Shown here one piece after another: positions 11,119 through 26,268 of a stretch of 37,753 bases of DNA. The number at the start of each line of letters is the position of its first letter. Position 1 is the first letter of the stretch. The position numbers and the translations under genes are program-made. The DNA lies in contig CANQDS010000016.1 in assembly GCA_947593655.1 (NCBI GenBank), positions 1-37,753 of the forward strand. Reading direction: 5' to 3'. Below the pieces are notes generated by a model. It worked only from the letters and a program-made list of their open reading frames with translations. It searched no databases and was not told the origin of the DNA. Source of the stretch: an uncultured Lachnospiraceae bacterium (GTDB lineage: Bacteria > Bacillota > Clostridia > Lachnospirales > Lachnospiraceae).

Positions 11119-11253
11119 TTATTCTGAGATGACCACCTCCTTTATTACGGGAGGAATATCCGGACAGGGCGGTTTTGGTATGTTGATCACCGCACCCCGG
11201 TATTCCATAGGGCTGAATTCAATCAGCAGCTGGATCGTAACTTCTTTTCTCAT
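11119..11253 (-). CDS. 44-residue protein of unknown function, last clear gene of the kinase operon
   Basis: A short reading frame beginning MRKEVTIQLLIEF and ending KEVVISE, with a Pro-rich centre (INIPKPPCPDIPP) and one Cys. It has no membrane segment or signal peptide. A clear ribosome binding site (AAAGGGG) lies 5 nt upstream of the ATG, which is why I call it real despite its size. It starts 47 nt after the stop of the lysine-less P-loop gene and is probably cotranscribed with it and the kinase. I do not recognise the family. A small partner or substrate of the kinase is possible but only inferred from position. Confidence 0.6.
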   Translation of the reverse strand: MRKEVTIQLLIEFSPMEYRGAVINIPKPPCPDIPPVIKEVVISE

Positions 11254-11300: not shown

Positions 11301-11894
11301 TTATAGCAGTTTCTCCAGAAATAACCAATCAGAGGGAGTTAAATGAAACGGATTTTCCAGATAAGGAACAGGCTGGACGGCAATGCGGTATCTGCGGCGG
11401 AAACGTTGTATCTCATCTTTTATCCCCATATTCCCCAGAAGCGTGATTTCTTCCGGATGACATTTATATTGATCGAAAAACGATTTCACCCAGGCCGCAT
11501 AGCGTTCCATTTTCCATGGACTGACACTTCCGACTGCCAGCTTTTTTTCCGTCCGCAGAAATTCCCGGCCGGCGGCAGAGTTCTCATCGAGCACGCCCAG
11601 ATCGAGAACAAAACAGGCGTACGGCTTTCCCAGGATTTCGGGAAGCTGATAAAACGTTGCTTCCGGATAAAAGTCGATTCTGAGAAATTGGAAGAAGGAT
11701 CCGGAAGAATCGGAGGAAAGCCCCCGGATCTGCCTGCCTGGATTCAGTTCCAGATAAGCGGTCTTTAAATTCTGCTTGTTTGCCAGAAAATTGGCGGCGG
11801 AGAGAGCAAGATGCGTTGCACCCGCTCCGTGTTCTATTCCGCCGATTCCAATGATCTGCGGGTTTTTAAAGCGCGTCGTTTTAAAATGGAAAAT
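11301..11894 (-). CDS. Lysine-less P-loop (MinD/ParA-like) protein with non-canonical start
   Basis: A 197-codon reading frame. Near its start GIGGIEHGAGATHLALSAA resembles the MinD/ParA deviant Walker A region, but Ala replaces the invariant Lys (GAGAT instead of GVGKT). Between the upstream stop near 11970 and codon 101 there is no ATG, GTG or TTG in this frame. The first canonical start, a GTG at 11594, would delete the P-loop region. I propose an ATT start at 11894 because AAAGGAAGG (11903-11911) lies 8 nt upstream. Alternatively it is made as a -1 frameshift extension of the kinase at a TTTAAAA heptamer. It overlaps the kinase 3' end by 61 nt. The kinase C-terminus has a related GCGATH segment, so the two may be duplicated domains that pair. 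Function unknown. Confidence 0.65.
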   Translation of the reverse strand: MFHFKTTRFKNPQIIGIGGIEHGAGATHLALSAANFLANKQNLKTAYLELNPGRQIRGLSSDSSGSFFQFLRIDFYPEATFYQLPEILGKPYACFVLDLGVLDENSAAGREFLRTEKKLAVGSVSPWKMERYAAWVKSFFDQYKCHPEEITLLGNMGIKDEIQRFRRRYRIAVQPVPYLENPFHLTPSDWLFLEKLL

Positions 11895-13210
11895 ATGCCT
11901 GACCTTCCTTTCTGAAACAGCAGCCGGGATACAAACGCGGCCTTTTCCTTTGTAATCCGAAACGGATCGCTATCATAAAGATAGGAATAGATCGGAAGGG
12001 AAAAGCGGTTTGCAAAGAAATTAGCAGAATTGCGGCTGCCTGGATTACAGATAATCCTGATGCGGTTCCGGTTCCGGGAAAGAAAATCGTCCTTGTCGAT
12101 GGCATCCGCCCTGCGCCAGAGAGCATCCGTGCACAGAAACAGGATAAGATCTGCATCGGAGAAAGCATCTTCATCCGTCAGGGATCCATAGTCTGTCACG
12201 CGGATGGCATTCTTTGGTTCGGGAACCTGTATGCCGGGTCCGTACTTGGGATAACCGCGAAAATTTTTGTAATACAGGCATCCGTCCTTTTCCCACATTT
12301 TTTTCTGGCAGGCGTACAGTTTACGCAGGCTGTCGGTTTCATTTTCTTCGAAATAACAGGCCGGATATCCCAGAAAATTTAACGTGGAAACAAGAGACAG
12401 TGCAAAGTGCGTTGCACCGCATCCTGGAAAACTCCCAGTTACTGCGATTGATTGCAAGAGATGCGGCTGACCGGTTTTTGAAAATTCTTTTTGAATTTCG
12501 GAACGGAGTGCCTCGACCGTTTCATAACGAAGCTCCGCTTCCGTTCGGGTTGCCTTTTGGATCATATGCTGAATGGAATGGGAAAGCGGGGGATCTACAT
12601 AGCGGCTCAGAAGTTCCATTATTTTTCCTATCGAGTAGATATCTGCCGAAACAGAAGGCTCTTCACCGGTGAAGCTTTCCGGGGCAGAAAATTCCGCATT
12701 CCCATACGTTTTGAAGTTATTTCCTAAACTGGTAACATAAGATGAGACACCGAAATCGATTAATTTCACCTGATCGCCGCATACTATAATGTGCTCTGGC
12801 TTTAAATCCTGGTAGAGAACCGGGCTTGGCATAGCGGTGTGCAGGTAAATAAAGATCTCGCATAACTGTCCGCAAAATGTATAAAACTGGTTTTGGGAAA
12901 TAAATGTCTGATGAAGCAAATACGACTCTAACGAATCTCCCCGGATATATTCTTCCACAAGATAATAATTTTCATTATCTTCTTCAATATCATAAATCAT
13001 GGGAATACCGGGATGCTTAAGAGATTTCAAAAGTCTTGCTTCCAATAGTACAGAGAGCTGGGACGAACTGTTCTTGGGGATAATTTTAACTGCCCGTTCC
13101 GACTCAAGAGACTGATGTCTGACAAGATAGACGGTGCCGAAGCTGCCATGTCCTAAAGTACGAAGGACTTCATACTTGCCTGACAAAATAAACTGGTTAT
13201 TCGTATTCAT
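11834..13210 (-). CDS. Ser/Thr protein kinase fused to a lysine-less P-loop domain
   Basis: A 458-residue cytoplasmic protein. Residues 13-245 form a Hanks-type kinase with glycine loop GHGSFGTV (21-27), Lys42 in AVKI, catalytic Asp135 and DFG at 152-154. The usual HRDLKPEN reads YQDLKPEH, so His140 replaces the metal-binding Asn. Residues about 255-458 form a MinD/ParA-like domain with GSFPGCGATHFAL, where Ala replaces the P-loop Lys. There are no membrane or PASTA domains, unlike PrkC. I chose the ATG at 13210 (AAAAGGAG just before it); an in-frame ATG at 13276 lies upstream but overlaps the promoter -35. It is first of an operon with the second P-loop gene and the 44-residue gene. A partner could be the FHA protein at 24943-26268; that link is inference. 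Confidence 0.87.
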   Translation of the reverse strand: MNTNNQFILSGKYEVLRTLGHGSFGTVYLVRHQSLESERAVKIIPKNSSSQLSVLLEARLLKSLKHPGIPMIYDIEEDNENYYLVEEYIRGDSLESYLLHQTFISQNQFYTFCGQLCEIFIYLHTAMPSPVLYQDLKPEHIIVCGDQVKLIDFGVSSYVTSLGNNFKTYGNAEFSAPESFTGEEPSVSADIYSIGKIMELLSRYVDPPLSHSIQHMIQKATRTEAELRYETVEALRSEIQKEFSKTGQPHLLQSIAVTGSFPGCGATHFALSLVSTLNFLGYPACYFEENETDSLRKLYACQKKMWEKDGCLYYKNFRGYPKYGPGIQVPEPKNAIRVTDYGSLTDEDAFSDADLILFLCTDALWRRADAIDKDDFLSRNRNRIRIICNPGSRNSANFFANRFSLPIYSYLYDSDPFRITKEKAAFVSRLLFQKGRSGIFSILKRRALKTRRSLESAE

Positions 13211-13247
13211 ATACTCCTTTTGGTCAGGAGCGCATCTCTTGAATACT

Positions 13248-13276
13248 CTTATAACACAATTTTTGGAGGAATGCAA
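13248..13276 (-). promoter_or_regulatory. Promoter of the kinase operon
   Basis: On the minus strand TTGCAT (13271-13276) and TATAAG (13248-13253) are 17 nt apart, about 38 nt before the ATG. Confidence 0.72.
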
Positions 13277-13425: not shown

Positions 13426-14217
13426 ATGAAAATTGAAAAAGTAAATGATAATCAGATCCGCTGCACTCTGACCAGAGAAGACCTGGCGGACCGCCAGATC
13501 CGTTTAAGCGAGCTTGCGTATGGGACGGAGAAGGCCAAGACGCTGTTTCGCGATATGATCCAGCAGGCGAACTATGAATTCGGATTCGAGGCGAACGATA
13601 TTCCGCTGATGGTCGAAGCAATCCCGGTATCTGCGGATTCCATCATATTATTGATCACGAAGGTAGAATATCCGGAGGAACTGGATCCCAGATTTTCCAA
13701 GTTTTCCGAAGCAGATGATGATCTGTTCGACACGGAGGAGCAGGATTCCGGCCACATGGTCCAGACGAAGGGCGCGGATGATGTTCTGGGAATGTTCCGC
13801 AGGCTGCAGGGAGAGCAGAACCGCATGCAGGAATCTTCGGAAACCCGAAAGGAAGTTCTGACGGAGGAGTCCGGCGCACAGCAGACCGTCATTCCGGAAC
13901 TGCCGGAGGTATCTGCGGATATTACGAAGATCTTTGAATTCCGCCGGATCGAACAGGTGGAGCGCATCGCTCATGTGCTGGACGGTTATTATCAGGGGAT
14001 CAACGACCTGTATAAGAATGAAAGGCAGAAACGCTTCTATCTGCTTCTCCACAAGAGCGGCCATACGCCGGAGGAGTTTAACAAAGTCTGCAATATTATC
14101 TGCGAGTATGCCCTGCAGAAGAATTACAGCGACGCGGCGGAAGCGTATTTTTCCGAGCATGGGAAAGTCATCCTCAAAGGAGACGCCCTGCAGGTATTAG
14201 CTTCCCTCGGGATATAA
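13426..14217 (+). CDS. mecA: Adaptor protein MecA
   Basis: A 263-residue MecA-family adaptor, which delivers substrates to the ClpC/ClpP protease. The N-terminal substrate-binding region begins MKIEKVNDNQIRCTLTREDL, typical of the family. The middle is an acidic linker (residues about 85-160), longer than in Bacillus (about 218 residues in total). The C-terminal ClpC-binding region follows from about residue 165 (ITKIFEFRRIEQVERIAHVL). The ATG follows AAGGATGTGA. It has its own promoter and terminator, so it is a monocistronic unit divergent from the kinase operon. No ClpC or competence gene is in the window, so its substrates here are unknown. Confidence 0.92.
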   Translation: MKIEKVNDNQIRCTLTREDLADRQIRLSELAYGTEKAKTLFRDMIQQANYEFGFEANDIPLMVEAIPVSADSIILLITKVEYPEELDPRFSKFSEADDDLFDTEEQDSGHMVQTKGADDVLGMFRRLQGEQNRMQESSETRKEVLTEESGAQQTVIPELPEVSADITKIFEFRRIEQVERIAHVLDGYYQGINDLYKNERQKRFYLLLHKSGHTPEEFNKVCNIICEYALQKNYSDAAEAYFSEHGKVILKGDALQVLASLGI

Positions 14218-16966: not shown

Positions 16967-16999
16967 TCAATTCACAACAAAAAAGAGGTGATGCAGGAA

Positions 17000-17530
17000 T
17001 TGGATGCAGTTCATCAGGCATCAGATCCGGTGTTATTTGCAATTGTGCTTGTTGCGGTGATATTGGATTTTAAGTACATGAAGATCAGTAACCGGCTGAT
17101 CCTCGTGGGTTTGGTTCTGGCATTGGCATTCGGGCTTTTGGGTAGGGGAGTGCCAGATGTTGTTTTTGTTCTATGGAACATATCTTTTCCGGTGATCGCA
17201 TTATATCTTTTTTATCTCATTGGTGCGCTTGGCGCAGGAGATATCAAACTATTTTCCGTAATCGGGGGTTTTCTCAATTTCAAAGAGCTGGTTGTTTGCA
17301 TGTTGTTTTCGTTTCTCGCGGGCGCAGTGCTGTCGCTTGGAAAACTGCTGTATCTTGGGCGGTTTTGGGATGGGATCCGGCGGGGAGGCGGCCATCTCTG
17401 GGACGTTCTGCGCGGCGGGCCTGCCCGTTATGAGAGGGACGTCAACGGGAAAACAGATGTCATCCATTTTTCATTTGCAATCCTTTTAGGGTTGCTGTTT
17501 ACAAAATTTTTTGTGCTCTGGCATATCTAA
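17000..17530 (+). CDS. Prepilin peptidase, A24 family (first of two)
   Basis: An aspartyl membrane protease that cleaves prepilin leaders, 176 residues with about five to six membrane segments. The first catalytic Asp is in ILDFKYMKISN and the second in GALGAGDIKLFSVIGG (the GxGD motif). It lacks the N-terminal methylase domain of PilD, as in CpaA/TadV. The start is uncertain: GAGGTG at 16985-16990 serves best for a TTG at 17000 (9 nt), but ATG 16991 and GTG 16988 are in the same frame and lie on or next to that site. It is the first gene of an operon of eleven; the next begins 15 nt later. A second A24 peptidase lies at 24337-24759. Confidence 0.87.
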   Translation: MDAVHQASDPVLFAIVLVAVILDFKYMKISNRLILVGLVLALAFGLLGRGVPDVVFVLWNISFPVIALYLFYLIGALGAGDIKLFSVIGGFLNFKELVVCMLFSFLAGAVLSLGKLLYLGRFWDGIRRGGGHLWDVLRGGPARYERDVNGKTDVIHFSFAILLGLLFTKFFVLWHI

Positions 17531-17545
17531 GGGAAAGGAGCAGAT

Positions 17546-18586
17546 ATGCAGAAAGTAAGATTAGCGGTCTGCATCAGAGATCAGGAATATGCGAACCGCT
17601 TTACCAATTGTTTACTCGGCCACTATGGCAGCCGGTTCGAATTACATCTTTTTACCGGGGCGGTGCAGCTGTTAGAAGCGCAGCCGGAGTCCTATGATGT
17701 GCTTCTCTGTTCGGATCGTGCGGAGGAATTGGAAAAGATTCTGGGCAAATGGCAGATACCCGTCGTCTGCCTGCTGGAAGAAGAACAGGAAAGGGAACTG
17801 TATGCGCATATGGAAGATGCGGAAGGGAGGCTGTGTTTTGTGGATAAATATCAGGAAGTCAACCGGATCGTCGATGAGATACTAAAAAGGATCGGAGATG
17901 AGATCCGCAATGTGCAGCAGACGGGAAGCATTTCGCCAAGGTGCCGTCTGGCGGGCGTATATTCGCTTTCGGAAAATGAATACCAGCTTCCGTTTACCGT
18001 GACGCTGGGATCGATTTTGGGAGAACAGGAGCGGGCGCTGATCCTGGATCTGCAGGAGAACAGCGGGTTTTCCCAGCTTGCCGGGCGCGGCGGGAATATG
18101 GGACTGGAAGAGCTTCTGGTCATGGCGGAAACGGAGAAATTCGCACGGGGAAGGCTGATGTCGTGCATCGGCCATCTGGACCGCGTGGATTATATCTATC
18201 CGGTGGAGAATACGGAATGCCTCTGCGAGGCGGCTTTGGAAACTTATCTGAAAGTGCTGCAGATGCTGACGCAGGAACTGGACTATGGCGTCATCATTAT
18301 CAATTTCGGTGCGCGTTTCGTAGGATTTTTTGAAGTGCTGAACCGCTGTCAGGAGATTTATCTGATGCAGAAGCGGGGCGGGCTCTGCCAGTGGCGTGAA
18401 TCGGAATTCATGGAGGAACTGGAGGCGAAAGGCTATCAGGAACTGATGCAGCGGATGACCAAAGTAGAGCTTCCGATCATGACGGAACCGGCTGTATCCT
18501 GTGAACGGCTGGTCGAACAGTGGAAATGGAATGAATTCGGGGACTGCATACGCAAAATGACACCGGGGGCGGCAGGCATTGGATGA
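17546..18586 (+). CDS. TadZ/CpaE-like protein lacking the P-loop
   Basis: A 346-residue protein between a prepilin peptidase and CpaF, the usual place of TadZ/CpaE, which localises the pilus machine at the pole. The first ~115 residues resemble a degenerate receiver domain (YDVLLCSDRAEELEKIL, then a strand with VVCLLEE). The rest has the order of strands of a MinD-like fold (ERALILDLQENSGF in place of the switch I region; DYGVIIINFGARF as the later strand). The position of the ATP loop reads GVYSLSENEYQLPFTV with no GKT, so ATP binding is unlikely. The ATG has AAAGGAG upstream. It overlaps cpaF by 8 nt. The TadZ identity is from context and fold pattern. Confidence 0.68.
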   Translation: MQKVRLAVCIRDQEYANRFTNCLLGHYGSRFELHLFTGAVQLLEAQPESYDVLLCSDRAEELEKILGKWQIPVVCLLEEEQERELYAHMEDAEGRLCFVDKYQEVNRIVDEILKRIGDEIRNVQQTGSISPRCRLAGVYSLSENEYQLPFTVTLGSILGEQERALILDLQENSGFSQLAGRGGNMGLEELLVMAETEKFARGRLMSCIGHLDRVDYIYPVENTECLCEAALETYLKVLQMLTQELDYGVIIINFGARFVGFFEVLNRCQEIYLMQKRGGLCQWRESEFMEELEAKGYQELMQRMTKVELPIMTEPAVSCERLVEQWKWNEFGDCIRKMTPGAAGIG

Positions 18587-19823
18587 TCGGATCAGCAGAT
18601 TAAGGGAACGCGTGCTGGCGGGCATGGATCTGTCCAAAGAGATGACCGATGAGGAGATCGAAGACCTGATTGCAAAAGAAATGGCGCAGACCGCGCAGAA
18701 GCATCCGCTTTCCTTAAAGGAACGGATGTATCTGGGGCAGCAGGTGTTTAATTCCCTGCGCAGGCTGGATGTGATTCAGGAACTGATCGATGATCCGGCC
18801 GTGACGGAGATCATGGTCAACGGCCCCGAAAATATTTTTTATGAGAAAGACGGTGCCATGCATCACTGGGAAGGGCGGTTTGCATCGGAAGAAAGGCTGC
18901 AGGATGTTTTGCAGCAGATAGTGGCCAGACATAACCGGGTGATCAACCGGGCTTCTCCGATCGTGGATACGCGCCTTGCCGACGGTTCCCGCGTGAATAT
19001 CGTCCTCAATCCGATTTCGCTGGGCGGTTCTGCCGTGACGATCCGTAAATTCCCGGACGAGCCGTTTACTATGGACCGGCTGGTTGAAACAGGATCCATT
19101 ACGAAGGAAGCGGCAGATGCCCTGCGTATTCTGGTGCAGTCAAAATACAGTATCTTTATTTCCGGGGGAACAGGCTCCGGGAAAACAACCTTCTTAAATG
19201 CATTATCGCAGTACATTCCCTCCGAAGAGAGAATTATTACCATAGAGGATTCTGCTGAACTGCAGATTCAGAATGTTCCGAATCTGGTGCGCCTGGAAAC
19301 AAGAAATTCCAATATGGAAGGCGTTGCGGCGATCACGATCCGCGATCTGATCCGGACGGCACTTCGTATGAGGCCGGACCGCATTATCGTCGGAGAGTGC
19401 CGGGGAGCCGAAGCGGTCGATATGCTGCAGGCGATGAATACCGGGCACGACGGAAGCCTGTCAACCGGACATGCCAATTCCTGCGGGGATCTGTTAAGCC
19501 GACTGGAAATGATGGTGTTAATGGGGATGGAACTGCCGCTGCCTGTCATCCGGCGCCAGATTGCTTCCGGCATCGATATCATCATCCATCTGGGGCGTCT
19601 GCGCGACAGGAGCCGCAAGCTGATCGCGGTCGATGAGATCGCCGGGATTGCGGAGGGCGAAATTGTGTTAAAGGAATTGTTCCGCTTTGAGGAAACCGGG
19701 GTGTGTGTCGGAAAGGTCTGCGGGGAGGTCAAGATGGTGGGAAGCCTCTGCCATCAGGAAAAACTCGCCGCCGCGGGAATGCTGGAGGCTGCAAAGAAAG
19801 GGGGTTTGTGTGGATTATCGTAA
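18579..19823 (+). CDS. cpaF: CpaF/TadA-type pilus assembly ATPase
   Basis: The motor ATPase that powers pilin extrusion; a hexameric type II/IV secretion ATPase of 414 residues. An N-terminal helical region is followed by DDPAVTEIMVNGPENIFYEK, then Walker A GGTGSGKTT (around residues 196-204). Walker B is in RPDRIIVGECRG (around 262-273), and the His box is in DGSLSTGHANS. All catalytic motifs are intact. The start is a TTG at 18579, overlapping the end of the preceding gene by 8 nt, with GGGGGCGG about 8 nt upstream; no in-frame ATG lies near. Overlap with both neighbours (TadB begins 14 nt before its stop) shows tight translational coupling. Confidence 0.95.
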   Translation: MDDRISRLRERVLAGMDLSKEMTDEEIEDLIAKEMAQTAQKHPLSLKERMYLGQQVFNSLRRLDVIQELIDDPAVTEIMVNGPENIFYEKDGAMHHWEGRFASEERLQDVLQQIVARHNRVINRASPIVDTRLADGSRVNIVLNPISLGGSAVTIRKFPDEPFTMDRLVETGSITKEAADALRILVQSKYSIFISGGTGSGKTTFLNALSQYIPSEERIITIEDSAELQIQNVPNLVRLETRNSNMEGVAAITIRDLIRTALRMRPDRIIVGECRGAEAVDMLQAMNTGHDGSLSTGHANSCGDLLSRLEMMVLMGMELPLPVIRRQIASGIDIIIHLGRLRDRSRKLIAVDEIAGIAEGEIVLKELFRFEETGVCVGKVCGEVKMVGSLCHQEKLAAAGMLEAAKKGGLCGLS

Positions 19824-20547
19824 CTATACGCTGTCTCTTGCGGAATATGGAAAAGTGATCCTGGTGGCGCTTGTGATCACCTCATGCGTTGCGTACCTGT
19901 TTTTCTCGAGCGGCTGTGCGATGCTGCTGACTCCGCTGGCAGGAATAGCAGTATACCATCATTTCCGGAATCAGGGATTGGAAAAACAAAAAAAGGAACT
20001 TTCTGCGCAGTTTCTGGATGCGATGCGGGTAGTAAGCACGGCGCTGCTTGCCGGATATTCGATGGAAAACGCCTGGAAGGAAGCACAGAAAGAAACGGGG
20101 CTTTTATATGGAGAAAATGCGGTGTTTTATCTGGAATTGCAGGAGATCAACCGGTCTGTCGGACTGAATGTTCCACTGGAACGCCTGCTGGAGTCTTTTG
20201 CGGAACGTTCCGGAATAGAAGATATCATGAGTTTTGCGGAAGTGTTTTCTTTTGCAAAACGATGCGGGGGCGACTATGCCGCGATCATAGAAACGACGAC
20301 GAACCACATGTACCAGAAACAGGAGATCGAGCAGGAAATTGATGTACTGGTGGCCGGGCGGAAGATGGAACAGAAGGTAATGAATCTGATACCGCTTCTG
20401 ATCCTTGCCTATCTGCGCTTTACATCCGGGGATTATCTGGATGTGCTGTACCACAATCCGCTTGGCGTCGTGTTTATGTGCGGATGCCTGCTGGTGTATC
20501 TGGCCGCACTCTTTCTGGCGGAAAAGATACTGGCCATTCATGTATAA
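19810..20547 (+). CDS. tadB: TadB-like membrane protein (type II secretion F domain)
   Basis: An inner-membrane platform protein of the pilus machine, 245 residues. Two N-terminal membrane segments (about 14-32 and 34-48) precede a cytoplasmic helical T2SSF domain (QFLDAMRVVSTALLAGYSME; later EVFSFAKRCGGDYAAII). Two C-terminal membrane segments follow (LIPLLILAYLRF and GVVFMCGCLLVYLAALFL). I chose the GTG at 19810, 5 nt after AAAGGGGG. It overlaps the cpaF stop by 14 nt. A start further upstream would only add residues translated from the alternate frame of cpaF. Confidence 0.85.
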   Translation: MDYRNYTLSLAEYGKVILVALVITSCVAYLFFSSGCAMLLTPLAGIAVYHHFRNQGLEKQKKELSAQFLDAMRVVSTALLAGYSMENAWKEAQKETGLLYGENAVFYLELQEINRSVGLNVPLERLLESFAERSGIEDIMSFAEVFSFAKRCGGDYAAIIETTTNHMYQKQEIEQEIDVLVAGRKMEQKVMNLIPLLILAYLRFTSGDYLDVLYHNPLGVVFMCGCLLVYLAALFLAEKILAIHV

Positions 20548-20583
20548 GCGGCCGGATCCGGTGCGGCGGCTGACAGGAGGGAT

Positions 20584-21813
20584 ATGGAAAAGAAAGAGAC
20601 AAAGAATGAGAAGAAGAAAATCGCCCTGGTTCTGATCTTACTTCTGGCGCTGGCGGGCTATGCGGAAAAATCCGGCCGTTTGATCGGCAGGAACGGAACG
20701 CTGGAGCGGAACGCGGCTGGAGAAGGCGAAATGGAAGCCGAGCTGCGGCTGGATGCAGAGGATGTTCTTAAGGATTATCCTTATTCTATAACGCTGGAAG
20801 AGGAAAAACCGACGAAGGAAGAAGCCGGAGAGTATTTTCAGCAGGCCAAAGAAGAGATCGACGAAACGTTCTGCCGGGACGGGGAAACGATTTCCCATGT
20901 GACGGAAGCGGTGAATCTGAAGGAAAGCTACGCCGGAGGAGTGGTGCAGGCGGCATGGAATTTTGACGACTATACGGCAATACAGACGGACGGGATCCTG
21001 GCGGAAGAAGAACTTCCGGAGGACGGAATACTGATCAATGCCGAAGCGGAACTTGTTTGCGGGGATTACCGGGAAGTGTATGCGTTTTCTTTCCGGGCGT
21101 ATCCGAAGGAGCTGACAAAAGCGGAGGAGATTCTGGCGGAAGTGGAAAAAGCGTTAGATGAGCAGCAGAAGAAAGCCGGTGTCCGCCAGCTGACTCTGCC
21201 GGAAGAAGTGTCCGGAGTCAAACTTTCCTGGTCGGAAAAGAAAGAGCATATGGCCGGAAAAATGCTGCTTTTAGAAATTCTGGTTCTTGCGATGATTCCT
21301 GTGATAAAAAGGGAACAGCGGAGGCAGGAGGAGAAAAAGCGCAGAGAGTCATTTTTACTGGATTACCCGGATATTGTGAGCAAAATAACGGTTTTGATGG
21401 GCTCTGGCATGTCTTTAAAGCAGTCCTGGAATCAAATTTCCGCTCGATACAGCGAAAAGAGGCAGAAAAATAATATACAGATCCATGACGCTTATGAAGA
21501 AATGGTGAAAACAAACCGTGAGATCCAGGACGGGGAAAGCGAGCGCTTAGCCTATCAGAAATTCGGAGAACGGGTGGGGATTTATGCCTATTACCGCTTT
21601 GTGCGGATCCTGATCCAGAATCTGCAGAAGGGAACCAGGGGACTTTGCGAGCTGTTAAAGCAGGAATCGGAGACAGCTTTTGAGGAGCGGAAGCTTTTGG
21701 CAAAAAAAATGGGGGAGGAAGCGGGCACGAAAATGCTCATTCCGCTGATCCTTATGATGGCAATCGTTATGGCAATTGTAATAATGCCGGCAATCATTAA
21801 TTTTATGAAATGA
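20584..21813 (+). CDS. tadC: TadC-like membrane protein with large extracytoplasmic insert
   Basis: The second platform protein, 409 residues, longer than typical TadC (about 300). An N-terminal membrane segment (12-26) is followed by about 195 mostly acidic residues that should lie outside the cell (residues about 27-222). Then come a second membrane segment (224-240), a T2SSF-like cytoplasmic region (FLLDYPDIVSKITVLMGSGM; GERVGIYAYYRFVRIL) and a C-terminal segment (IPLILMMAIVMAIVIMPAII). The external insert is not what I expect of TadC and may contact a surface part of the pilus. The ATG at 20584 has AGGAGG 4 nt upstream. The Flp1-like pilin gene follows after 12 nt. Confidence 0.8.
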   Translation: MEKKETKNEKKKIALVLILLLALAGYAEKSGRLIGRNGTLERNAAGEGEMEAELRLDAEDVLKDYPYSITLEEEKPTKEEAGEYFQQAKEEIDETFCRDGETISHVTEAVNLKESYAGGVVQAAWNFDDYTAIQTDGILAEEELPEDGILINAEAELVCGDYREVYAFSFRAYPKELTKAEEILAEVEKALDEQQKKAGVRQLTLPEEVSGVKLSWSEKKEHMAGKMLLLEILVLAMIPVIKREQRRQEEKKRRESFLLDYPDIVSKITVLMGSGMSLKQSWNQISARYSEKRQKNNIQIHDAYEEMVKTNREIQDGESERLAYQKFGERVGIYAYYRFVRILIQNLQKGTRGLCELLKQESETAFEERKLLAKKMGEEAGTKMLIPLILMMAIVMAIVIMPAIINFMK

Positions 21814-21825
21814 AAGGAGAAAATT

Positions 21826-21993
21826 ATGTTAGGATTTAAGAATTTTATCAAAGAGGAAGATGCAATCGGAGTGGTGGAATTGATCTTGATTTTGGTCGTT
21901 TTGATCGGTCTGGTGCTGATTTTTAAGAATCAGCTGGTCAAACTGGTCAATAACATTTTTAAAACGATCACCAGCGAGGCGGGAAAAGTTTGA
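21826..21993 (+). CDS. Flp1-like major pilin candidate
   Basis: A 55-residue protein. A short charged leader (MLGFKNFIKEED) is followed by AIGVVELILILVVLIGLVLI and a short amphipathic tail (LVKLVNNIFKTI). The hydrophobic helix with a Glu near its start is the hallmark of Flp pilins; the G-V-V-E segment probably marks the peptidase site and Glu+5-type residue. It resembles the clostridial Flp1-like family (PF16982 from memory). The ATG has AAAGGAG 5 nt upstream, and its TGA overlaps the TTG start of the next gene. Being the only pilin of this type in the operon, it is the best candidate for the main subunit. Confidence 0.88.
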   Translation: MLGFKNFIKEEDAIGVVELILILVVLIGLVLIFKNQLVKLVNNIFKTITSEAGKV

Positions 21994-23462
21994 GCGGGCA
22001 GAAGGCCAGAGGCAGCATGACGGTCTTTGCCGCTATGAGTATCATGTTGGTCGCCGCTTTCCTGTTTGCGCTGCTGGAGTCGGCAAGGATCGTGGAAATG
22101 CGTAAAATGGTCCGGATTCAAACGGATTCCGTTTTGGAATCCGTGTTTGCGGCATATGTCAAACCGATGTGGGAAAATTACCATCTGCTGACGTGGAATG
22201 CCGGGGATGGCGAACAGCTGTCCTTTTCGGAGAAAGAAGCATATATCCGGGATCTGTCGGAAGAAATGCGCCTTTCCAAAAAGGCGTCCCTGATCCAGAT
22301 GGAAATGACCGGTGTTTCGTTTGACCGTTATCTGCTGCTTACCGATGAAAACGGAAAGGCGTTTGTCAGTGCGGCGGCCGCGTATATGCAGCGCTTTCTG
22401 CCTTTGGCGGAGCTCAAGCAGATCTACGGGAATTACGAGGCGGCAGATCTGCTGGAAGAGTCGCAGAAAGGAAAGGAAGACGCACTGGAGAAATCTTTAG
22501 AGACGATCAAAACGATCGAAGAGTCTGAAGAAGATCCAAAAGAAGAAAAGGCTGCGCTGCCCGAAGAACTGCAGGAAAATCCGCTGGAAACCGTAAAGAA
22601 GGCGAAAAATTCCAAAATACTGGATCTTGTGGTAACGGATAAAAATAACATTTCAAGTGCATCGATGGAGATGTCCCGGCTTCCTTCCCGGCGGAGACTG
22701 GCATCCGGAAATCTAAAAACGGATTTAAATGCCTCGTGGCTGGAGACGGTTCTTTTTGACCAGTATCTTGTCAGCAGTTTCTCCAATTATACAAACATCA
22801 TGGAAGGGCGCGCGCTGAATTATGAGCTGGAATATCTTCTGTGCGGAAAGGGAACGGATGTGGATAATCTGGAAGGGTGCGTTATGCGGATCATCGGGAT
22901 TCGGGAGGTGGCGAATCTTTTGTACCTTATGACAGATGCGGCAAAGCAGAGCGAAGCAATGGCGGCGGCGACCGCCATTGCCGGGGCGAGCCTGAATCCG
23001 GCGATCGTTGAGATCGTAAAGCTCGGTCTGCTTGCTGCGTGGGCGTTTGCGGAAAGCGTGCTGGATGTCCGGACGCTTCTGAATGGCGGTTCGATCCCTC
23101 TGATTAAAAATTCCGCACAGTGGACTTCGGATTTACTTCATCTGCCTTCCGTATTTACGGGATCGGTTCAGGCGGAATCCTCCGGCGGCCTTGATTATAC
23201 GTCCTACGTCGGACTATTGCTTTTCTCTCAGGATTCCGGCAGACTGGCCTACCGTGCGATGGATCTGCAGGAGAGTGCGGTTCGGATGCTGGACGGATAC
23301 CATGATTTTTGCATTGATCATATGGTGTTGGATGCAGAGATTACTGCCTGCTATCGTGCGCACAGCATCTTTCTGGGGATGGAGAGCATTACGGCCGGGA
23401 TGGACGGAGAGTTTCAATTAACGGGCAGCAGTTCCTACTCGTATCGAAAGGCGGGGATATAA
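21990..23462 (+). CDS. DUF5702-type pilus-associated protein
   Basis: A 490-residue protein with an N-terminal anchor (TVFAAMSIMLVAAFLFALLE, residues about 11-30) and a long part expected outside the cell. Helical stretches (LEKSLETIKTIEESEEDPKE) and a hydrophobic portion near residues 325-355 (AAATAIAGASLNPAIVEIVK) are visible. I associate this layout with DUF5702 proteins, which accompany Tad-like clusters in Lachnospiraceae and may correspond to TadG. The start is TTG at 21990 with GGCGGG upstream and a 4-nt overlap with the pilin gene; an ATG at 22017 is an alternative. Role in pilus tip or anchoring is inferred from context. Confidence 0.72.
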   Translation: MSGQKARGSMTVFAAMSIMLVAAFLFALLESARIVEMRKMVRIQTDSVLESVFAAYVKPMWENYHLLTWNAGDGEQLSFSEKEAYIRDLSEEMRLSKKASLIQMEMTGVSFDRYLLLTDENGKAFVSAAAAYMQRFLPLAELKQIYGNYEAADLLEESQKGKEDALEKSLETIKTIEESEEDPKEEKAALPEELQENPLETVKKAKNSKILDLVVTDKNNISSASMEMSRLPSRRRLASGNLKTDLNASWLETVLFDQYLVSSFSNYTNIMEGRALNYELEYLLCGKGTDVDNLEGCVMRIIGIREVANLLYLMTDAAKQSEAMAAATAIAGASLNPAIVEIVKLGLLAAWAFAESVLDVRTLLNGGSIPLIKNSAQWTSDLLHLPSVFTGSVQAESSGGLDYTSYVGLLLFSQDSGRLAYRAMDLQESAVRMLDGYHDFCIDHMVLDAEITACYRAHSIFLGMESITAGMDGEFQLTGSSSYSYRKAGI

Positions 23463-23464
23463 GG

Positions 23465-24325
23465 GTGTCTCAATGTGGAAACAGGCATTTTGCTTTAGTA
23501 TGTCAAAACGAATCTCTCCCAAAGAACGCACGCCAGAAAACAGAAGATGCTTTTTGCAATGGGGCACCCTTATGCGCCCGCAGGGGTTCGTTTACTCTGG
23601 AGGCGGCAGTCGTCATTCCGCTTACAGCAGCATTTTTAGCAGCGCTTTTGTTCTTCTTCCGGGTGCTCCAGATTCAGACGGCGGTATCCGGCGCTCTAAG
23701 CTATGCGGGAAGAAAATCGGCCGCCGCCAGCAGTTTTTCCGATTCGGAAACGGCGGAGCTTGCGGCGGCAAAGCTGTATTTTTTGAAAACCCTGTCCAAA
23801 GATGAAAATATCGACCGGTATGTCAGAGGAGGGAAACTGGGAATTTCTCTTGCCGGTTCTGATTTCTGCGGAGAATATATTGCATTGGAGGCGGCGTATG
23901 AGATCCAGCTTCCGGTTCATTTCTTTTCGGTGCGGGGAATTCCGGTGATCCAGAAAAGCGTGAACAGAAAATGGACCGGCGAGTCAGCGGATGGAGAAGA
24001 AGCGGATCCCTTTGTATATATCACGCCGGAGGGGACGGTGTACCATCTCTCAACCTCCTGTCATTATCTGGATCTGTCCATCCAAACGGTCAAAAGTGCC
24101 GAAATCGGGCGTCTGCGCAACCAAAATGGACACAAATACTACGCGTGTGAGCGGTGCGCGGCAGAAAATCCAAAACAAAAGGACCTGTATATCACGGATT
24201 ATGGAACGGTATACCATGCCAGTCTGCAATGCAGCGGTTTAAAGCGGACGATCTATGAAGTCCGCCTGTCAGAAGTCGGGACGCGGGGCGCATGCTCCAA
24301 GTGTGCGGCAGGGAAGAAAAAATAG
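23465..24325 (+). CDS. TadE-like pseudopilin with two C-terminal cysteine modules
   Basis: A 286-residue protein. After an unusually long ~41-residue leader ending CARRG comes SFTLEAAVVIPL, a prepilin peptidase site with the membrane helix of a TadE-like protein. The C-terminal 100 residues carry two copies of a module with VYHxSxxCxxL and a closing CxxC (YHLSTSCHYL...CERC, then YHASLQCSGL...CSKC). These look like metal-binding or disulfide modules on the outside of the cell. The GTG at 23465 has AAAGGCGGGG 8 nt upstream and follows the previous stop by 2 nt. It may be a minor or tip subunit; that is inference. Confidence 0.8.
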   Translation: MSQCGNRHFALVCQNESLPKNARQKTEDAFCNGAPLCARRGSFTLEAAVVIPLTAAFLAALLFFFRVLQIQTAVSGALSYAGRKSAAASSFSDSETAELAAAKLYFLKTLSKDENIDRYVRGGKLGISLAGSDFCGEYIALEAAYEIQLPVHFFSVRGIPVIQKSVNRKWTGESADGEEADPFVYITPEGTVYHLSTSCHYLDLSIQTVKSAEIGRLRNQNGHKYYACERCAAENPKQKDLYITDYGTVYHASLQCSGLKRTIYEVRLSEVGTRGACSKCAAGKKK

Positions 24326-24336
24326 GGAGGATCAAA

Positions 24337-24759
24337 ATGGAGCAGATCGGAAACTTTGTGGTTGGGAGCAGTTTGCTGGCAAACAGTATTATGGATTTGC
24401 GGAAACGGCGGATTCTGCTGCCGCTTACGGTTGTATGCGGAATATTCGGACTTGCGCTCCGCATATGGGAGGACGGTGTCGGCGTGTCTCTTTTCCTGCC
24501 GCTGATTCCGGGTTTGTTTTTTCTGTTGTTTGCTTTTCTCAGCAGGGAAAAGGTCGGCTATGGAGATGGAATCCTGCTGCTTGCGATCGGCGGGTATTTT
24601 CATGGAGAAGAACTGCTTACGCTGTGCATGACGGCGGTGTTTGCGGCAGGGATCGCTGGTTTGGTATTATGCGTCTTTTTCCATAAAGGGAAAGATTATG
24701 AGATCCCGTTCGTACCGTTTTTGTTTTTTGGATATCTGGCGGCGAGGTATTTCACATGA
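24337..24759 (+). CDS. Prepilin peptidase, A24 family (second of two)
   Basis: A 140-residue membrane aspartyl protease, shorter than the first one. The catalytic Asps are in ANSIMDLRKRRI and in REKVGYGDGILLLAIGG (GYGD). About five hydrophobic segments are visible. I chose the ATG at 24337 because GGGAGG lies 6 nt upstream; an in-frame start at 24292 is inside the preceding gene. It overlaps the next TadE-like gene by 4 nt (ATGA). Together with the peptidase at 17000-17530 this gives two in one operon, perhaps one for the Flp pilin and one for the pseudopilins. Confidence 0.85.
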   Translation: MEQIGNFVVGSSLLANSIMDLRKRRILLPLTVVCGIFGLALRIWEDGVGVSLFLPLIPGLFFLLFAFLSREKVGYGDGILLLAIGGYFHGEELLTLCMTAVFAAGIAGLVLCVFFHKGKDYEIPFVPFLFFGYLAARYFT

Positions 24760-24950
24760 AGGGAAGTTATACGATTGAAGCCTCGGTTCTGATCCCGCTG
24801 CTTCTGATGGTTATGGCGCTGGGAATGCGCATGGGGATCTATCTTTATCAGGAGATTCGGGAGCAGAAGGAGCAGCAGGCGGTGGAAGAGCTGTGGGAAG
24901 TAAAGGATTTTTACCAATACCAGTGGATAGGAGAGATGACCAATGATTAA
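24756..24950 (+). CDS. Small TadE-like pseudopilin
   Basis: A 64-residue protein: a three-residue leader (MKG), then SYTIEASVLIPLLLMVMAL, matching the prepilin cleavage and helix pattern of TadE with Glu at the fifth position. A charged helix (QEIREQKEQQAVEEL) follows. It overlaps the preceding peptidase by 4 nt and the FHA gene by 8 nt, so it is tightly coupled. Probably a minor pilin. Confidence 0.85.
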   Translation: MKGSYTIEASVLIPLLLMVMALGMRMGIYLYQEIREQKEQQAVEELWEVKDFYQYQWIGEMTND

Positions 24951-26268
24951 CAGAGAGATCATATACGAAAGAAATCTGACCGGAAGTTATATGAAGATCC
25001 CGGTCAGTTACGAAGGGGAATTTGATGAAAAAATGATGCTGAAACGGAAGCTTCCGGGGCTTCTGCCGGTGGAAAAGTGTTTTGTCAACGGAAACGGGCA
25101 GTATTGGTATCAGATATCCGGGAAGCAGTCTTTAGACACATATTGCCGGATGAAACCGGTCGGCATTCATTTTGTAAAGCAGATGGTCGTAAGCATCTGC
25201 AGCGAGATTGAGATTTTGGAATGGAATCTGTTAAAGCCGAATATTCTTCTGCTGGATCCGGAACTGATCTTTGTGACGAACAGCAATCAGGAGATCATTT
25301 TTACGATTTATCCGGGCGCAAAGACGGAAGTGGCACTGGAATTTCAGCAGCTGATGGAATATCTGCTGACGAAGATCGATCATAAGGATGCCGCCGCGGT
25401 GCATATGGCCTATGAGATTTACGAGAAAACACTGGATGAAGGTTACAGCCTTATGGATATCCGGGATTCCCTGATCGAAAGCAGGGAAGCGGCACAGGAA
25501 GAGGCGGCTGCGGATAACCGGTTTGAAAAACGGATAGAAAACCGGACGGAAAAGCGGAGCGAAAAACGGCTGGAAAACCGGGCGGAAAAGCGAAGCGAAA
25601 AACGGCTGGAAAACCGGGCGGAAAAGCGGAGCGAAAAGCAGACAGGAAAGCGGCTGGAAATAAAGAAGATGGGAAAACAGCCGGAAAAACAGGGCGAAAA
25701 CCAGACAGAAAAGAGCAGCATCCGGGAATATGTGAAAACATCCGGCATAGGCGCGCTAAAAGAACGCAGGGAAGAAATCGAGGGAATGATGAGGGATCAT
25801 TGGAGAGAGATTTCGGAGAAATGGAAAGCGGCGCTGAAATTTACGGGCAAAAAGACTAAGGAGCCAGAGGAGGTTCCCCTGCCGACTGTGACGTATCCGG
25901 GCGAAGCGGAACCGGAGGAGCCCGCGGCACAGGAACCGGTTTATCCTACGGTTTGTTTGAGCAGCTACCGGGAGCATCCGGAGGGGATTTTATTATATGA
26001 AGGGAAAGAACATTTTTCCAATATCCGGATCGAGGGCGAGGAGTGCCGGATCGGGAAAGGAGACGGTGTGGATGCCGCGATAGAAAAAGATACGATCAGC
26101 CGCTTTCATGCGCGGATCCACTGTGAGAATCAGGAATATTATATTGAGGATCTAAACTCTACAAATGGCACGTTTATTAATGATGAAACGCTTTCCTATA
26201 AAGAATGCAGGCAGTTAAAGCCGAATGACAGGATCCGTTTTGCGGATGTCCGATACCGTTTTCTTTGA
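24943..26268 (+). CDS. DUF6382-like protein with C-terminal FHA domain
   Basis: A 441-residue cytoplasmic protein. Residues about 1-180 match what I recall as DUF6382 (KQMVVSICSEIEILEWNLLK; LDPELIFVTN), usual in clostridial Tad clusters. Residues about 185-255 are a charged Lys/Arg/Glu repeat linker. The C-terminal ~90 residues are a forkhead-associated domain, with RIGKGDGVDAAI, the phosphopeptide-binding ISRFHARIHC and NSTNGTFI, all canonical. FHA domains bind phosphothreonine, so a Ser/Thr kinase must act on a partner. The kinase at 11834-13210 is the only candidate in the window. It ends the pilus operon and overlaps the previous gene by 8 nt. Confidence 0.85.
   Translation: MINREIIYERNLTGSYMKIPVSYEGEFDEKMMLKRKLPGLLPVEKCFVNGNGQYWYQISGKQSLDTYCRMKPVGIHFVKQMVVSICSEIEILEWNLLKPNILLLDPELIFVTNSNQEIIFTIYPGAKTEVALEFQQLMEYLLTKIDHKDAAAVHMAYEIYEKTLDEGYSLMDIRDSLIESREAAQEEAAADNRFEKRIENRTEKRSEKRLENRAEKRSEKRLENRAEKRSEKQTGKRLEIKKMGKQPEKQGENQTEKSSIREYVKTSGIGALKERREEIEGMMRDHWREISEKWKAALKFTGKKTKEPEEVPLPTVTYPGEAEPEEPAAQEPVYPTVCLSSYREHPEGILLYEGKEHFSNIRIEGEECRIGKGDGVDAAIEKDTISRFHARIHCENQEYYIEDLNSTNGTFINDETLSYKECRQLKPNDRIRFADVRYRFL
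25536..25643 (+). repeat. Three 36-bp coding tandem repeats (Lys/Arg/Glu linker)
   Basis: Units start at 25536, 25572 and 25608 and encode variants of ENRAEKRSEKRL. The repeats keep frame and lie between the DUF6382-like and FHA parts. Confidence 0.85.

Follow-up and report, generated by a model that had tools for sequence, protein, structure and literature searches.

The gene that follows a Ser/Thr protein kinase gene in an uncultured Lachnospiraceae bacterium (hereafter gene 2) very probably encodes a separate protein whose translation would start at an AUU codon (positions 11894-11892, minus strand), behind a strong Shine-Dalgarno (SD) sequence situated within the end of the kinase gene, and the use of a codon other than AUG at this site appears to be conserved across the genus Roseburia. 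The window, that is, the whole stretch of DNA analysed, comprises 37,753 nucleotides (contig CANQDS010000016.1 of assembly GCA_947593655.1), and the features of the locus are collected in Table 1. Comparison of homologous loci demonstrates the site of the putative start, its codon, its SD sequence, the spacing between them and the independence of gene 2 from the kinase frame.

Table 1. Features of the kinase/gene-2 locus in the window
Feature	Position	Strand	Evidence
Ser/Thr protein kinase ORF with C-terminal MinD-like domain	11834..13276	-	Pfam PF00069, E 1.6e-37, residues 35-264
Kinase C-terminal MinD/ParA-fold domain, paralogue of gene 2	11837..12469	-	AlphaFold, Foldseek, hhalign
Shine-Dalgarno sequence AAAGGAAGG, within the kinase coding sequence	11903..11911	-	read directly; SD-like sites in homologues
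Spacer TCAGGCAT between SD sequence and ATT	11902-11895	-	read directly
Putative ATT (AUU) start codon of gene 2	11892..11894	-	aligned codon in 57 loci of the genus
Gene 2, 197-aa MinD/ParA-fold protein without Walker-A lysine	11301..11894	-	
44-aa ORF with ATG start, directly 3' of gene 2, apparent third operon gene	11119..11253	-	sequence; tblastn

The kinase contains AVKI, QDLK and DFG motifs at residues 62, 156 and 174, respectively, and the ATG at 13210 appears to be a likelier start for it than the TTG at 13276. Its gene overlaps gene 2, which lies in the -1 frame, by 61 nt. The gene-2 frame opens after two adjacent stop codons near 11975-11970 and, in agreement with what a sequence-only reading of the window had reported, contains no ATG, GTG or TTG up to codon 101, a GTG at 11594. 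Given the frequency of these three triplets within gene 2 (3.4% per codon across 57 loci), a start-free run of 125 codons has a chance probability of about 0.013; for the window taken alone, the absence of start codons thus carries modest statistical weight. The same reading had pointed to AAAGGAAGG located 8 nt before the ATT, as well as to two TTTAAAA heptamers in the X XXY YYZ phase of the kinase frame (11885-11879 and 11870-11864), all of which are indeed present. The third apparent gene, the 44-aa ORF (MRKEVTIQLLIEFSP...), has tblastn matches just 3' of gene 2, with E values of 1e-7 to 1e-4 in L003, L005 and L007 and weaker matches (E >0.005) in other Roseburia loci, and is likely a member of the operon. 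A hairpin involving the SD sequence and the start was considered and rejected as a conserved element: the 141-nt fold in the window has a z score of -1.94, with 8 of 200 shuffles as good, but in the 57 homologous loci the 60 nt around the start give a median z of 0.0, with only two values below -1.5.

Gene 2 was found by protein search in 57 of the 62 genomes of the genus, inferred to be Roseburia, and tblastn placed the kinase next to it in all 57 loci (in L035 only the kinase end is seen, as the contig stops there). The kinase/gene-2 junction was compared in all of them. At the aligned start position, the codon is ATT in 43 loci, ATC in 6, ATA in 4 and ATG in 4; in other words, 53 of the 57 loci have a non-AUG codon. 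It should be noted that in 10 loci the codon picked automatically was replaced by its neighbour in the aligned column; without this correction the counts are ATT 38, ATC 12, ATA 4, ATG 2 and TCT 1. The ATG occupies the same aligned column in three of the four exceptions (L003, L007 and L027) and lies elsewhere, at the P-loop strand, in L034. In the latter locus (genome G026), the N-terminal stretch of gene 2 seems to be missing, and the apparent ATG start is preceded by a weaker SD sequence. The first residue of gene 2 is at least 90% conserved in the 54 aligned rows, which were cut at this codon. An assembly error can be dismissed, since contigs longer than 3 Mb (ATC in L054, L048 and L029; ATT in L006) show non-AUG codons as well, as does the isolate R. 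inulinivorans DSM 16841, whose locus (ATT) is listed both as L150 and as L014. Thus, as judged from the aligned loci, gene 2 has a conserved non-AUG start (AUU, or AUC or AUA in some species) throughout Roseburia.

Further evidence concerns the surroundings and the identity of this codon. From the preceding in-frame stop to the P-loop, 37 of the 57 loci have no canonical start codon, against 20.5 expected (P about 2e-6); the expectation is based on codon frequency alone, the P value is approximate, given the relatedness of the species and the codon constraint imposed by the overlap with the kinase, and the P-loop position, taken from tblastn alignments, is likewise approximate. Furthermore, in 23 of the 57 loci the gene-2 frame is closed by a stop no more than 21 nt ahead of the start codon (no more than 9 nt in 7), and there is therefore almost no room for an upstream start in these cases. 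Besides the four loci with ATG, 16 of the 57 have an in-frame canonical codon either 5' of the ATN site or a short distance 3' of it, with SD pairing of -6.2 kcal/mol or weaker. Finally, internal isoleucine codons of gene 2 (754 codons) are 44.6% ATT, 34.9% ATC and 20.6% ATA, whereas ATT accounts for 43 of the 53 isoleucine-type start codons (P 8e-8; 38 of 54 and P 1.7e-4 with the uncorrected picks), both P values being optimistic because the species are related. The usage at the start departs from that within the gene, and hence the codon does not appear to be simply an isoleucine codon read in elongation. The second codon of gene 2 is TTT or TTC in 41 of the 43 loci with ATT (positions 11889-11894, minus strand, in the window), compared to 5 of the 14 others.

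In the homologues, the start codon occupies a fixed place after an SD sequence resembling AAAGGAGG. The SD duplex energy at the 53 non-AUG sites has a median of -13.7 kcal/mol, against -9.2 kcal/mol for the best canonical codon of homologues from 59 loci of other genera, and the spacing from the end of AGGAGG is 8 or 9 nt in 46 of the 57 automatic picks. We also considered that a weaker SD sequence might compensate for an ATG; this idea was abandoned, as the four ATG sites (-13.8, -10.0, -16.5 and -8.8 kcal/mol) show no clear trend.

The sequence-only reading had proposed that either initiation at the ATT or -1 frameshifting operates at this junction, and had named the alignment of homologous operons as a way to tell them apart. 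The second route, programmed -1 ribosomal frameshifting at TTTAAAA, would yield a kinase with two MinD-like domains. It fits the window, with its two heptamers in the right phase and gene 2 in the -1 frame, and -1 is also the commonest frame relation in the genus; more broadly, kinase-frame heptamers of the form X XXY YYZ (Y being A or T, Z not G) occur in 28 of the 57 loci. However, the frame of gene 2 relative to the kinase is -1 in 38 loci, +1 in 18 and 0 in 1, corresponding to three changes on the tree, and TTTAAAA is found in the kinase frame in only 8 of the 57 loci and is absent from the nearest relative, L003. Given this distribution, -1 frameshifting cannot be the shared mechanism. 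In L008, L033 and L036 the kinase stop codon precedes the gene-2 start codon (in the other 54 loci it follows it), and the sister loci L008 and L033, in both of which the kinase ends before gene 2 starts, differ in frame (0 versus -1), yet both retain the SD sequence and the ATN codon. As for the proposed stimulator, ACCCGC and GCGGGT are indeed complementary, but the 61-nt stretch containing them folds no more stably than shuffled sequences (z -0.49, 59 of 200 as good), and its best fold lacks that pairing, as assessed in the window with a pseudoknot-free model. We consider that frameshifting has a very slim chance of being correct. Only independent initiation accounts for all species, with their variable frames, non-conserved heptamers and sometimes earlier kinase stops. 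Of the two routes, it is thus the ATT that the comparison strongly supports, together with its SD sequence, and not the heptamer.

Two other explanations have to be weighed against initiation at the AUU. The true start might lie elsewhere, either at an upstream or nearby ATG, GTG or TTG where one is present, as in the 16 loci mentioned above, or at a neighbouring ATN one triplet off, as suggested by the adjacent ATC or ATT codons chosen by the automatic rule in 10 loci. Yet the canonical candidates are poorly paired and missing altogether from 37 loci, the close upstream stops of 23 loci argue against them as well, and in three relatives the ATG coincides with the aligned codon; initiation at the adjacent ATN would in any case be non-AUG initiation too. 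This alternative is accordingly very improbable. Even less credible, with next to no probability in our judgement, is that gene 2 is decayed or mis-sequenced and has lost its ATG in this assembly. The source genome is admittedly a draft (186 contigs, 87% complete), and three relatives have ATG at this codon. Nevertheless, the non-AUG codon is present in 53 of 57 species, including those represented by contigs of more than 3 Mb and by an isolate, the homologous frames are open, the predicted fold is confident and residues are invariant. A sequencing error at the junction, which the sequence-only reading had named as one way in which its proposal could fail, is ruled out by this conservation. 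Another such way was the existence of homologues that have an ordinary ATG in this place; they do occur, three at the aligned codon (the fourth ATG being elsewhere), but, because ATG is a rare exception there, they mark the start site and do not refute initiation at AUU, which remains the preferred reading.

To place the codon in an evolutionary context, a quick protein tree was used, from which the start codon was left out and for which SH-aLRT values are the only support. On this tree the start codon has changed at least 10 times, with ATA requiring a single change. The four ATG rows are separate tips and account for four changes, three of them forced by starred branches; change counts of this kind give no direction. 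The simplest reading would be that the genus has a non-AUG codon as its standing state, AUG having arisen on single tips. Looking beyond the genus, a gene-2 profile matched 115 of the 396 family genomes, including two from Roseburia; since the profile also matches the kinase's own domain, some of the 113 genomes from other genera may represent kinase matches. We compared 68 loci from these 113 genomes, of which L088, with a frame of 506 aa, and possibly others may correspond to the kinase and not to gene 2. A canonical codon is found at most 25 codons before the P-loop in 59 of the 68 loci (by best SD sequence, ATG in 32, GTG in 15 and TTG in 12), and none is present from the upstream stop to the P-loop in 7. 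In ten loci of other genera (L061, L064, L067, L068, L078, L106, L107, L118, L125 and L128), the homologue likewise seems to begin with ATA, CTG, ATC, ACG or ATT, before which the better SD sequence stands. Judging from these sequences, weak starts recur in other genera, and the near-universal AUH start is a trait of Roseburia; it is assigned to the genus level because the homologue has an ordinary start in most other genera.

Two genes served as controls. For infC, the classical AUU gene, which encodes IF3 and is autoregulated by it, ATT AGC GA(G/A) follows GGAGG in all 30 loci compared (30 of the 54 genomes with a match). In 29 of the 30 loci the ATT is followed five codons later by an ATG, and in L179 another ATG lies two codons upstream; because of these nearby ATG codons, the ATT start of infC rests on homology with known infC genes. 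The start of mecA is ATG in 30 of 30 loci (from 30 of the 62 genomes). Among the three genes checked (gene 2, infC and mecA), an AUU start is thus shared by gene 2 and infC. In the window, mecA (13426-14217, plus strand) is the divergent neighbour of the kinase operon, and by eye it lies within a few kilobases of gene 2, on the same contig, in 56 of the 57 genomes; in G036, gene 2 is at the contig end.

The protein encoded by gene 2 is predicted to adopt a MinD/ParA fold spanning approximately residues 12-197. It has no Pfam or NCBIfam match up to an E value of 1, and a PDB sequence search returned a weak match to 4rz2 (FlhG; E 0.006). The deviant Walker-A motif of MinD/ParA proteins includes the lysine of GK[ST]; in gene 2 all 54 aligned rows have V, T, A or C at this position (column 26), three of the 57 loci having been left out. 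Thus, gene 2 would share the fold of the MinD/ParA family, FleN/FlhG and TadZ without the Walker-A lysine. The C-terminal domain of the kinase was modelled by AlphaFold with a mean pLDDT of 85.6, falling below 50 at model residues 188-192 and 194-204; its last ~20 residues, which are encoded in the overlap, are of low confidence. Foldseek matches of this domain are FleN, ParA and FlhG, and hhalign aligned it with gene 2 at a probability of 99.7 (E 1.1e-25). The gene-2 product probably pairs with the kinase, or with a partner of the kinase, as a non-catalytic (pseudo-ATPase) regulator.

How the start might work can be sketched from known systems. The ribosome would bind the strong SD sequence within the kinase message and the initiator tRNA would start at the AUU, with the SD sequence perhaps compensating in part for the weak codon. 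The AUU would keep gene-2 output low and would make it respond to initiation factor IF3, in the manner of infC, pcnB and sigR, and the overlap (the start precedes the kinase stop in 54 of the 57 loci) suggests translational coupling to the kinase. Together, the codon and the overlap could set a low ratio of free MinD-like domain to kinase, so that a little of the pseudo-ATPase domain, in an amount linked to the kinase, would be free to pair with the kinase's own copy or with its partner. By analogy with these genes, low, IF3-sensitive output of gene 2 relative to the kinase is the likely purpose of the arrangement, and the genus-wide occurrence of AUU, AUA and AUC suggests that the cell deliberately makes only little of the gene-2 protein. 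Much more tentatively, and less probably than not in our judgement, the overlapping cistrons of the kinase and of a free copy of its own C-terminal pseudo-ATPase domain might constitute a dosage switch read by IF3 in a signalling operon, in which the AUU holds the free domain scarce and ties it to initiation stringency (IF3 level or growth state), such that formation of the kinase complex would read the translation state.

Several precedents are relevant. The AUU start of Escherichia coli pcnB limits expression and keeps the protein scarce; it resembles gene 2 in its codon, and we know of no overlap of pcnB with a partner gene. According to one study, AUU-type codons, including that of infC, are repressed by IF3 (PMC5472188). 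The AUU and the SD sequence are common to infC and gene 2, but gene 2 encodes a different protein as a second cistron within an overlap, and its control by IF3 is putative. The same study reports that the GTC start of Streptomyces sigR is repressed by IF3, keeping SigR below RsrA, and that across the genus the codon is GTC in 32 of 34 species and GTT in 2, without being seen in other genera (PMC5472188). The sigR gene resembles gene 2 in its conservation within a single genus, its strong ribosome-binding site and, putatively for gene 2, the dosage of an operon partner; it differs in that the codon is GTC and not AUU, the gene is the upstream one of the pair, and genetics stands behind sigR, compared with sequence comparison for gene 2. 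In Staphylococcus aureus, reporters of cvfC1 (AUU) and ccpN (AUA) are described as giving about 10% of the AUG level, and ccpN up to 30% in rich medium (PMC13009471). These genes share with gene 2 a conserved non-canonical start and an extended SD sequence, but they encode other proteins, none a MinD-like protein of a kinase operon. Clostridia can use an engineered AUU start (PMC11040787) and pncA of Borrelia starts on AUU (PMC13398362). By sequence comparison, gene 2 is thus a putative addition to the small class of conserved non-canonical starts represented by infC, pcnB, sigR and ccpN. Among the literature matches listed (titles, with subscription journals thinly covered), we found no earlier mention of an AUU/ATT start in Roseburia, nor any of Lachnospiraceae with a non-canonical start.

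Documented cases of bacterial genes whose conserved start is none of AUG, GUG and UUG are few. In Roseburia, a large gut genus, a single base change at this site would produce AUG, yet AUG is found in only 4 of the 57 species, on separate tips, and the locus thus offers a natural experiment for studying how a strong start is selected against. Gene finders limited to ATG, GTG and TTG would miss or truncate the gene-2 protein (the first such codon in the window being codon 101), and a genome-wide screen for a conserved SD sequence plus ATH without a canonical start could uncover further genes.

Gene 2 was also considered as a TadZ/CpaE homologue. TadZ/CpaE proteins carry an N-terminal receiver-like domain before the ATPase domain, and Pfam contains a model for it (TadZ-like_ARD); the fold of gene 2 is alike, but its 197-aa product has neither a receiver domain nor the Walker lysine, and the assignment was rejected. 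Co-occurrence with Tad systems was likewise set aside: it carries no information in a family in which almost every genome has Tad markers (380 of the 396 for DUF5702 and 384 of the 396 for another), compared to 115 of 396 for the gene-2 profile. The window itself contains a Tad pilus cluster (16988-26268, plus strand) encoding two prepilin peptidases, a weak TadZ-like receiver match, T2SSE, T2SSF, DUF5702 and a DUF6382-FHA protein, and it is possible that this FHA protein acts as a reader of the kinase's products.
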